A stretch of DNA of 44,162 bases. It comes from Terriglobia bacterium. Lineage in GTDB: Bacteria; Acidobacteriota; Terriglobia; UBA7540. A program made the translations under genes and the position numbers. The notes under the pieces are model-generated. The model was not told the DNA's origin. It ran no database searches and saw nothing but the letters and a program-made list of their open reading frames with translations. Positions 15,575 through 44,162 of the stretch are shown here, piece after piece. The stretch lies in contig JASHQD010000774.1 in the NCBI GenBank assembly GCA_030037755.1, forward strand, positions 1 through 44,162. Direction: 5' to 3'. Position 1 is the first letter of the stretch; each line of letters starts with the position of its first letter.

Positions 15575-16096
15575 TTAGCTCGCGCGCTGGCTCACTGCCG
15601 GACGCGCCTGCGCCGATTCTGCGCGTCCTTCGCGGAGAATCTCGATGCTGCCCTTGAAATAGGCGCCGTCCTCGATCGCCACGCCGGCCGCCTGCAAGTC
15701 ACCCGTCACGTTGCCGGTGCGACGGATGTCGATCTTCTCACGCGCGCTGATTTTCCCGTTCACCGAACCATGGACGATCACCTGTCGCGCCCGGATCTCG
15801 GACTTCACCTGGCCTTGTGGACCGACGGTCACGGTGTTCTCCGCCACATCGATGGTGCCCTCGAACTGGCCCTCGATGACCAGGTCCTCCTTGGCGGAGA
15901 GCTCTCCCTTGATGGACATGGACCGTCCCAGCGTGGACGATGCTTGCCCGCTGCTCGGGGCGGGAGGACGCGGAGTGACATCTGCCATAGGTTTCTCCAT
16001 TCGAGGAGGCTCGGGCGGAGGCGGAACAGCTTCGGGACCGGGAACTGTCGGGCTCGAGCTCACACTTTCGGGTTTCTGTTTCTTATCCCACAACAT
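15575..16096 (-). CDS. Bactofilin (polymer-forming cytoskeletal protein)
   Basis: Bactofilins form nucleotide-free filaments at the membrane that recruit cell-wall enzymes. The 173-residue protein has a Pro-rich disordered N-terminus (1-60). The right-handed beta-helix core follows at about 60-155, with repeated 'G....v.G.v.G.i' turns (MSIKGELSAKEDLVIEGQFE, VTVGPQGQVKSEIRARQVIV, HGSVNGKISAREKIDIRRTG, VTGDLQAAGVAIEDGAYFKG). A short tail closes it. It is the first gene of a minus-strand cluster with the methyltransferase-like protein and slt. A candidate promoter lies at 16145-16173. Confidence 0.92.
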   Translation of the reverse strand: MLWDKKQKPESVSSSPTVPGPEAVPPPPEPPRMEKPMADVTPRPPAPSSGQASSTLGRSMSIKGELSAKEDLVIEGQFEGTIDVAENTVTVGPQGQVKSEIRARQVIVHGSVNGKISAREKIDIRRTGNVTGDLQAAGVAIEDGAYFKGSIEILREGRAESAQARPAVSQRAS

Positions 16097-16173: not shown

Positions 16174-16183
16174 TCGTCAGGCG

Positions 16184-16320
16184 GTCAATCCGTCAGTATG
16201 TCAGTACATCAGTAGGTCAGTACGTCGGATTTCAGAGCTGACCGATCGGCGTAAAGTACCGAGCAACTTGCTGGCGCACTGACTTACTGATGTACTGACA
16301 TGCTGGCCGACTGACGTACT
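16184..16320. repeat. Octamer hairpin tract E2
   Basis: The left arm has five contiguous 8-nt units (GTCAATCC, GTCAGTAT, GTCAGTAC, ATCAGTAG, GTCAGTAC; 16184-16223). The right arm has six complementary ones (GCTGGCGC, ACTGACTT, ACTGATGT, ACTGACAT, GCTGGCCG, ACTGACGT; 16270-16317). The segment ATGTCAGTACATCAGTA at 16198-16214 is exactly complementary to 16285-16301, giving a 17-bp perfect stem inside a longer imperfect one. The 46-nt core between arms is non-repetitive. It fills most of the spacer between msrB and bactofilin. Confidence 0.85.
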
Positions 16321-16325
16321 CGAAA

Positions 16326-16916
16326 TCAAGTGTTCTTCACAAACTTGAGCGCCGCGGAATTCATGCAATAGCGCAGGCCTGTCGGCGGCGGGCCGTCGTC
16401 GAAAACGTGGCCGAGATGCGCGTCGCACAGCCTGCACTTCACTTCCGTGCGCTCCATGCCCAGGCTCGAATCGGCTCCGGTCTCGATGTTTTCCTCGGCA
16501 ATCGGCGCCCAGAAACTCGGCCAACCGGTTCCGGAATCGAACTTGGTCTTCGAGTCGAACAGCGCGTTGTCGCAGCAGATGCAACGGAAGATTCCCTTGT
16601 CATGCAGATTCCAGTACTGCCCGGTGAACGCTATCTCGGTGCCGGCGCGACGGGTCACATTGAACTGCTGCGGCGTAAGCTGCTTCTGCCACTCGGCGTC
16701 CGTCTTTACGACCTTTTGCATCTTTACGGCTCCTTCGCGCTTGCCCGCGTCTGTGAACTGGACAATCTTAACCGGTTTCAGATCGCGGGAGCCGGCGTCC
16801 GCTTCCGCTGCGGACGTTCCGGCGGCGATCGCCCTCTTGCGTGCGAACCACACGGCCGCGCCTGCAACCGCGCCCAACGATGCCAGGAATTCGCGGCGCG
16901 TTCCGGAAATCTTCAT
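16326..16916 (-). CDS. msrB: Peptide-methionine (R)-S-oxide reductase, Tat-exported
   Basis: Repairs methionine-R-sulfoxide in proteins. The 196-residue product begins with a twin-arginine signal ([19 protein letters not shown]), so it acts outside the cytoplasm. The MsrB domain starts near residue 75 ([20 protein letters not shown]). It has zinc-binding CxxC pairs in [11 protein letters not shown] and [14 protein letters not shown] and the substrate motif SGTGWPSF. The catalytic Cys is in [11 protein letters not shown]. All key residues are present. The gene is transcribed divergently from the glycoside hydrolase at 17048. A thioredoxin-type partner would be needed in the periplasm; none is adjacent. 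Confidence 0.93.
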
Positions 16917-29685: not shown

Positions 29686-29953
29686 TCGGCACCGGGTTCA
29701 ACGCAGAGGCCACAGAGGAGGCCGAAAACGTGACAGCAGTGCAATCAGCCCCGCAGGCTGCTTTCCGGCAAACATGTGCCCTGTCCGGCACTTTCGGGGC
29801 CGAATTGTTTCTCGGCGCTCCCATCCGCAGGCTTGCGCCTTCGGCTAGTCGAGGTGTTGTCCCCGGGCAACGAGTCGGGGTGTTGCCCTTCGGGCAACGG
29901 GCGGACGATTCACCGAGCACAATCGCATCACGTCCCGGCGTTCCTCGATCCCA
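29686..29953. terminator. Convergent spacer with clustered GC hairpins
   Basis: This 268-bp spacer lies between the converging kinase-family and xseA genes. It contains GTTGTCCCCGGGCAAC (29856-29871) and GTTGCCC-TTC-GGGCAAC (29882-29898), two related stems 10 bp apart, plus CCGCAGGCT twice (about 29751 and 29825) and the repeated word CAGAGG near 29704-29717. No gene is credible here. The stems could end transcription from both sides. Confidence 0.5.
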
Positions 29954-31312
29954 TCACGTCTTCGCGTTCCTCACTTCCGCTTCCAACTCCCCGCTGGCAA
30001 GCCTGATTGAGATCTCGCTTCCCGCGGAGACCTGCCTCGCGTCACGCACGATGCGTCCGGCGGCGTCGCGCGTGATCGAGTATCCGCGCCTGAGAATCGC
30101 CATGGGATTCCGCTCCTCGAGCAACGCCCGATCGTGCGCGAGGCGATTCCGCTGCTCGCTCAGGGCGCGATCGATGGCCGCGTCGAGACAGCCCGCGCGC
30201 TCCCGAACGGTTCCGCGGCGGATCTCGAGGAAGCGCTCGAAGTCGTAGCGGACCAGTCCGGGCGCAATCTGCATCAACTGACGGCGCGCCGCGCCCAGCC
30301 GGCGCGCCATGGACGCGTTCAGTGCCGCGGCAGCTTCGTCGATGCGCTGCGCCCGTTGCACGATGCGCGTTGCCAGCGTTTGAAACACGCGATGCGCGCT
30401 CATTTCGCCGAGCCGATGCCGAGCTTCGGCAAGACGCAAGCGTACGCATTGCCCGAGATGGCGCGCTCGGCTCTCGACCTCGGATTCGAAATCGGAGCGG
30501 CGCCGAACCACCAGTTCCGCCGCTGCCGACGGCGTCGGCGCGCGCAGGTCAGCGACAAAATCGGCGATGGTGAAGTCGGTCTCATGGCCCACGGCGGAAA
30601 CCACAGGCACTCGCGAAGCGGAGATCGCCCGCGCTACACTCTCCTCGTTGAACGCCCATAGGTCCTCAAGCGATCCGCCGCCGCGCGCCACGATCAGCAC
30701 GTCCACGCCGGGCCAGCGGTTGATACACCGGATCCCCTCCGCGATCTCCGCCGCCGCGCCTTCGCCCTGTACGCGCACGGGATAGAGTAGCGCGTTGATG
30801 TTCCGAAACCGGCGGCGCAGAACCCGCAGAATGTCGCGAATCACCGCCCCGGTCGGCGAGGTCACGATCCCGATCGTCCGCGGCAGCACCGGCAGCGGCT
30901 TCTTGCGGGCCGAATCGAACAGGCCTTCAGCGGCCAGCCGCGCCTTGAGCTGGTCGAAGGCGAGCTGCAGCGCACCAAGTCCCGCGGGCTCCAGAAGCTC
31001 GACGATCAACTGGTATTCGCCGCGCGCCTCGTAGACGCTGAGCTGTCCGCGCGCGATCACCGAGAGCCCGTCGGCCGGCTTGAACTTCAGATATCGCGCC
31101 TGGCTGCGGAAACAGACAGCGCGGAGCTGGGCCTTGGAGTCTTTCAGCGTGAAGTACAGGTGACCGGAGCTCGCGGGACGAAAATTCGAAATCTCGCCCG
31201 TAACCCATACGTCCGGGAATTGCTCCTCGAACAGAGCGCGGATCTCTTCGCTGATCTCCGAGACGGTGAAGATCTTGCGCTGCGGTTTAAAGTCGAGAAG
31301 AGCTTGTTCCAT
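29954..31312 (-). CDS. xseA: Exodeoxyribonuclease VII large subunit
   Basis: Large subunit of a single-strand-specific nuclease used in repair. The 452-residue protein has an N-terminal OB-fold ([42 protein letters not shown]). The catalytic domain follows with [44 protein letters not shown] and [32 protein letters not shown] long coiled coil and a C-terminal [14 protein letters not shown] segment end it. The small subunit gene xseB does not follow. The ATG at 31312 lies beside heptamer element E5, leaving a weak Shine-Dalgarno. Confidence 0.94.
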
Positions 31313-38219: not shown

Positions 38220-38222
38220 TAG

Positions 38223-38339
38223 GGGTCAGGGATCAGGGGCCAGGGACATTGTCACGGACCAGGGACGAAGGCCATGAACGACGCATCGGACGGGCAACTG
38301 ACCACTGACAACCACTGACAACTGACGACTAACCACTGT
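38223..38339. repeat. Heptamer element E7
   Basis: The left part has GGGTCAG, GGATCAG, GGGCCAG (38223-38243) and then looser GG-ACC words. The right part has CAACTGA, CCACTGA, a 3-nt interruption, CCACTGA, CAACTGA, CGACTAA, CCACTGT (38295-38339). The arms are only partly complementary (GGTCAG/CTGACC). It separates aceE from aceF inside the pyruvate dehydrogenase operon and stops 10 bp before the aceF ATG. Confidence 0.75.
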
Positions 38340-43648: not shown

Positions 43649-43662
43649 GGTTCAAGTTAGAA

Positions 43663-43771
43663 GTCTGAAGGCTGAAGTCTGAAGGCTGAAGTCTGAAAGC
43701 TGAAGCCAAAACTGATTCTGTTTTCATATTTCAGCCTTCATACTTCATACTTCATACTTCACACTTCAGCC
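43663..43771. repeat. Heptamer hairpin element E8 (clearest example)
   Basis: The left arm is six perfect-phase units: GTCTGAA, GGCTGAA, GTCTGAA, GGCTGAA, GTCTGAA, AGCTGAA (43663-43704). The right arm is six complementary-type units: TTCAGCC, TTCATAC, TTCATAC, TTCATAC, TTCACAC, TTCAGCC (43730-43771). The 25-nt core is AT-rich. It fills the tmk-holB spacer and encodes the last five residues of Tmk (LKCEV). Confidence 0.9.
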
Positions 43772-44162
43772 TTCTCCTGTCGAGCACCTCATCCACAATT
43801 CGCGCGATGTCCGCCTCCACGTCGCGCGGACGGCGTGCCGCGTCGATCACGCGGACGCGCTCGGGTTCGCGGCGGGCCAGAGCGAGGTAACCGGCTCGCG
43901 CTCGCTGCTGAAACTCGAGACCCGCAGCTTCGAAGCGCGACGTGCCTGCTTTGGCGTCGCGACCCAAGGCGCGTTTGAGCGCCAGCTTCGGATCGAGATC
44001 GAGCACCAGCGTAATATCGGGCTGCGTCGAATCGCAGATAGCGCGGTCGAGCAGCCGCACGGTGCGCGTGCCGAGTCCGCGCGCGTAGCCTTGGTATACA
44101 AAACTGCAATCGTTGAACCGGTCGCTCACCACGATTTCGTTCCGTTCCAGGGTCGGCCGGAT
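43752..44162 (-). CDS. tmk: Thymidylate kinase, partial (N-terminus beyond window)
   Basis: Phosphorylates dTMP to dTDP. The visible 136 residues cover the second half of the enzyme and run off the window edge. VVSDRFNDCSFVYQGYARGL contains the DR motif and the YQGYARGL substrate loop. LVLDLDPKLALKRALGRD and FEAAGLEFQQRARAGYLALARREPERVRVIDAARRPRDVEADI follow, with the lid-region residues. The P-loop is outside the window. The C-terminal LKCEV is contributed by heptamer repeat E8. It is upstream of holB on the same strand. Confidence 0.88.
   Translation of the reverse strand: MRPTLERNEIVVSDRFNDCSFVYQGYARGLGTRTVRLLDRAICDSTQPDITLVLDLDPKLALKRALGRDAKAGTSRFEAAGLEFQQRARAGYLALARREPERVRVIDAARRPRDVEADIARIVDEVLDRRRLKCEV

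Follow-up and report, generated by a model that had tools for sequence, protein, structure and literature searches.

Heptamer arrays are widespread in bacterial genomes and are usually treated as products of slippage. REP, REPIN and BIME sequences are dispersed intergenic palindromic elements that are often found near gene ends, and REPs in particular are palindromes of 20–40 bp with GTAG/CGTC tags and a RAYT. Arrays of short tandem units that occur in pairs have been described in Xanthomonas, where, according to Rehm et al. (2015, PMC4692102), GGGAATC/GGGANTN heptamers form 70–75 convergent pairs per genome, always with one array per strand. These arrays are intergenic, lie near the end of the upstream ORF, are few between divergent ORFs and occupy sites that vary among species; their heptamers are G-rich and form G-quadruplexes in vitro. 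In Geobacter metallireducens (PMC2700814), class 1 sites consist of four tandem GTTGCTYN octamers, with the last base free, and class 3 sites of MTYCTGA heptamers. Most of these sites are pairs on opposite strands separated by a variable distance, with about 8–24 pairs per class; the facing octanucleotide and heptanucleotide sites were proposed as sites for global regulators (IHF/HU), and the same slot of a sister species can carry a different repeat, as at proBA. The TAACTGA repeats of Beggiatoaceae, cyanobacteria and Bacteroidetes (MacGregor 2015, PMC4679880) have a period of 7, are direct, with one inverted pair, and are located just upstream of start codons. A literature search on octanucleotide inverted repeats in Acidobacteria returned no direct report.

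The element analysed here is present in a 44,162-nucleotide stretch of DNA (the window), which corresponds to contig C613 of a genome of 6.68 Mb in 802 contigs (G000). It lies 5 nt past the stop codon of msrB (16326–16916, reverse strand; SelR domain, peptide methionine sulfoxide reductase B, PF01641, E = 1.1e-51), ahead of the bactofilin gene (15575–16096, reverse strand; PF04519, E = 4.3e-26), which is the next gene downstream and co-directional. The nearest named relatives of this MsrB belong to Acidobacteriaceae and Acidicapsa. The octamer, GTCAGTAN, is composed of the core TCAGT and three free bases, and about six copies of it are found in each of two inverted arms (16184–16320). In the left arm (16177–16231, forward strand), TCAGT-type cores follow each other at an exact pitch of 8 nt, with one further degenerate unit upstream, and the units read, in order, GTCAATCC, GTCAGTAT, GTCAGTAC, ATCAGTAG, GTCAGTAC and GTCGGATT. 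After an inter-arm spacer without periodicity (16232–16274), the right arm (16275–16320, reverse strand) carries the same octamer reversed, with ACTGA cores on the forward strand, facing the left arm; reverse-complemented, its units are GTCAGTCG, GCCAGCAT, GTCAGTAC, ATCAGTAA, GTCAGTGC and GCCAGCAA. TRF detected period 8 at 16191–16226, and the right half of the element is a lag-8 array with a score of 12; arrays as strong as this were absent from locally shuffled sequence. The inverted repeat pairs 16184–16224 with 16275–16315 (41 nt, 85% complementary, 50 nt separating the arms), and the exact 17-bp complement consists of ATGTCAGTACATCAGTA at 16198–16214 (forward strand) and its partner at 16285–16301 (reverse strand). 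The period of eight in both arms, the positions and the 17-base complement are as reported in the initial annotation; its count of five and six units becomes about six in both arms if the degenerate end units are included. The length of the 17-bp run is unsurprising once both arms share the octamer, the expected longest match between two such arms being 12.3 (p = 0.087). Elsewhere in the window, the intergenic region 29847–29972 contains two 26-bp direct duplications.

Like REP, REPIN and BIME sequences, the element is dispersed, intergenic, palindromic and near a gene end; unlike REPs and REPINs, its arms are tandem arrays without a GTAG/CGTC tag. With Geobacter metallireducens classes 1–3 it shares multicopy tandem units in opposite-strand pairs and a slot whose repeat changes between relatives, but it differs in the unit, TCAGTNNN, in the up to nine units per arm of this family, in its Acidobacteria-related host and in its placement at gene ends. 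The Xanthomonas heptamers resemble it in being intergenic convergent pairs near the upstream ORF end with conserved and variable unit positions, but the TCAGTNNN octamer has no G-tract, and octamers are not reported for the Xanthomonas repeats in the available part of that source (PMC4692102). Reverse-complemented, TAACTGA reads TCAGTTA, so its core is related to that of the element, and both are intergenic and multicopy (PMC4679880); in contrast to those repeats, the element has a period of 8, forms an inverted pair and follows a stop codon. The features of the convergent paired arrays of Xanthomonas and Geobacter, namely 7–8-nt units arrayed on opposite strands, a fixed convergent polarity and dispersed intergenic positions near the upstream ORF end, were all found here. 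In Xanthomonas the GGGAATC heptamers, and in Geobacter metallireducens the paired octanucleotide sites, are the closest precedents, and the element is a variant within a class that is known but poorly understood.

Sampling 547 kb of the genome irrespective of repeat content (the window and 60 contigs), we found 73 period-7 and 10 period-8 tandem arrays, compared with none in locally shuffled sequence. The genome contains 55 occurrences of three consecutive TCAGTANN copies; the reversed control gave 8. Other unit families of like architecture in the same genome include GATTGCC, GGTTGCC, AGTGGCG, AGTTGAC, GAAGTCT and TCAGCNN, and a second octamer family, ATTGAGTN, is present both in this genome (L060 4815–4878, L085 7078–7147 and L109 13431–13471) and in three other family members (G004, G010 and G020; loci L262, L266 and L272). 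Adjacent octamer units agreed at 0.90–0.93 in the core (about 92%) and at 0.39–0.49, near random, in the three spacer positions; both values decayed little up to four units apart. Columns were significantly uneven (p < 0.05) in 60 of 80 octamer arrays and 83 of 172 heptamer arrays, and in three genomes adjacent units were not clearly more alike, nor identical spacers clearly commoner, than in non-adjacent units. The arrays thus combine a constrained core with free spacers, and this pattern is not that of recent slippage. The ends of contigs C350 and C486 (L035 1–190 and L036 19–210) bear what is apparently one octamer hairpin in opposite orientations. Since the assembly seems to break at octamer hairpins, the array counts are lower bounds. 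L036 was left out of the core–spacer agreement and the column counts, and of the spacer-sharing test, the stop-codon distances of paired elements and the G·U counts given below.

Orientation was strict. Adjacent pairs of TCAGT-family arms were convergent in 43 cases, divergent in none and on the same strand in 6, the C350/C486 locus probably being counted twice; the left-arm motif polarity of heptamer pairs was skewed likewise (30:6). In this genome, 126 of 140 arrays are intergenic, the remainder lying inside called genes, and paired elements between co-directional genes start a median of 2 nt after the upstream stop codon (36 of 45 within 20 nt). Per kilobase, arrays were rarest between divergent genes (0.41 vs 1.56 and 1.14), a deficit that shrinks once gap length is matched; genes were called with a home-made caller, so that the start codons underlying these context counts are approximate.

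We compared the periods of neighbouring 7- and 8-period arrays (≤200 bp apart) in three genomes: G000 itself, a congener (G001) and a member of the same family (G016). Period was concordant in 91 of 102 pairs and discordant in 11, with the C350/C486 locus probably entering twice, compared with the 19–50% discordance expected if periods were independent; the discordant pairs were mostly directly oriented adjoining arrays or unrelated neighbours. When the check proposed in the initial annotation was run, 69 of 70 inverted neighbouring pairs had equal periods in both arms, and the sole discordant case was weak. This concordance is partly built in, because only arms with equal periods can be aligned, and the count over all neighbours is the fairer test. 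Since neighbouring arrays share their period beyond expectation, the arms are not accidental neighbours, as the initial annotation had maintained; they share it because both come from one unit family.

The same annotation proposed that the arms are copied from each other or under joint constraint. Inverted copying would predict a unit-by-unit match of the variable positions, and the controls revealed none: compared with column permutation, in-register matching had a median p of 0.46 in 40 heptamer pairs and of 0.55 in 28 octamer pairs (the C350/C486 locus probably included twice), and spacer triplets were not shared within elements above the level between elements (p = 0.06, 0.22 and 0.95 in the three genomes). 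An arm on contig C326 (L032) matches the left arm of the element as well overall as its own partner does, with a longest exact run of 22 bp vs 17 bp. For the element at 16184–16320 the best arm alignment shows a weak, marginal in-register excess of matches (p = 0.024). Inverted duplication with register was accordingly rejected overall across the 68 pairs tested and is marginal for this element, so that copying is unsupported. Joint constraint is possible for the core motif and its orientation and does not extend to individual base pairs.

The distribution of the repeats among relatives is uneven. G000, G001 and G016 contain octamers of the TCAGTANN type in abundance, and the remaining 58 genomes have few or none; CAGTNNN heptamers are patchy across the class, the control pattern being raised too in repeat-rich genomes. 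In the congener, the msrB–bactofilin slot is occupied by an interrupted array of heptamers, (AAAGTCR)n, and not by the octamer (p = 0.0005 vs shuffles). Of the occupied G000 slots, 10 were also readable in the congener; arrays were present in both species in four of these and in G000 only in six, as determined by an automatic scan that missed the interrupted array at the msrB–bactofilin slot, one of the six. Two slots retain octamers in both species with an altered number of units, and a third has a heptamer hairpin in both with different units: GAAGTCT/GAAGGCT at 43654–43774 of the window, and GTTCGTA/GATCGTA at the same gene boundary of the congener (L162 14737–14964). Individual loci thus gain and lose elements rapidly, which makes a gene-specific function unlikely. 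The congener region L162 8774–9409, the counterpart of window positions 38222–38332, is longer by about 500 bases, which lie between heptamer arrays and by eye look like a putative HicA/HicB-type toxin–antitoxin pair. In another Acidobacteriota genome (JAFAZX010000045.1, L252 3444–3530), a GAAGGNN heptamer hairpin lies about 40 nt past an msrB match.

Our leading, still tentative, reading is that the element belongs to a set of dispersed paired recognition arrays at gene ends and most likely serves as a DNA-level docking platform for a putative protein. In each arm, TCAGT cores recur every 8 nt with three free bases between them, and the two rows always face each other; lying directly past stop codons, the element leaves promoters and reading frames undisturbed. 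The putative protein, recognising a short directional motif, would occupy one core after another along both arms; between the two genes, the facing rows might be joined by a bridge or form an extruded hairpin. The existence of many unit families with one architecture means that a single specific protein is not an easy explanation. The placement right after stop codons and the very stable predicted fold (z-score of −7.4 for the msrB-sense RNA) would also suit a 3′-terminal hairpin in the msrB mRNA with a role in message stability or transcription termination, but we consider this unlikely. The antisense strand is predicted to fold better than the sense strand (−75 vs −67 kcal/mol; z-scores of −9.0 for the antisense RNA and −7.1 for DNA), variable positions do not pair in register, and octamer pairs occur between divergent genes also. 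No intrinsic terminator was recognised at the element, no U-tract follows its stem on the transcribed strand, and U-tracts were few in general (TTTT in 6 of 135 flanks). Sense-strand G·U pairs were not in excess over A·C (68 vs 74, p = 0.67). With no G·U bias, few U-tracts and an antisense strand that folds better, RNA-level selection is not visible; a search of the window against Rfam 15 at the gathering score gave no match.

The core–spacer contrast, the register and the polarity bear in turn on a neutral origin, in which polymerase slippage would generate the tandem repeat and template switching the inverted arm. Many bacteria have more heptamers than any other long simple repeat, and slippage has been invoked to explain them (work cited in PMC4679880); the weak in-register excess at the element also agrees with such an origin. 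However, slippage predicts alike neighbours and equal divergence everywhere, while cores are conserved and spacers are not, and template switching predicts arms in register and both polarities, neither of which was observed. Because these three observations are at odds with it, we regard this origin as quite improbable. Only slightly less probable than the docking reading is a repeat family that is selfish or spreads passively: a putative mobile or recombination mechanism (REPIN/RAYT-like) would place copies at further gene ends, host function would be absent, and polarity and period would go back to the founder of each family. The occurrence of one octamer consensus at many loci in three genomes and its rarity or absence in most other family members, the slots that differ between congeners and the two octamer slots with changed unit number are all consistent with it. 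On the other hand, arm length, spacer length and spacer sequence vary from element to element, and neither fixed ends nor near-identical copies of whole elements were seen among the elements read. Within the family, the number of Y1 (RAYT-type) transposases did not clearly follow that of the repeats (rho 0.22, p = 0.18); over all 61 genomes the correlation (rho 0.39) was no stronger than that with genome size (rho 0.44). G000 has five Y1_Tnp matches, and the repeat-rich G016 has a single weak one. What remains is a short directional core recognised at a fixed pitch in facing rows, as a docking element or as a selfish family. It is also conceivable, with low probability, that facing fixed-pitch arrays of many 7- and 8-nt cores form one sequence-flexible class, in which a single directional machinery would read or write the arrays and swap the unit, and even the period, at gene ends between close relatives while keeping the architecture.

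To the precedents in Xanthomonas and Geobacter, the present data add the contrast between core and spacer, the lack of register between arms, the 43:0 polarity and the difference between octamer and heptamer in one slot. A conserved core, free spacers and arrays that always face each other contradict both simple slippage and simple inverted duplication and point to recognition. The presence of an octamer in one species and a heptamer in its congener at the same slot constitutes a natural experiment on the making and loss of these elements.
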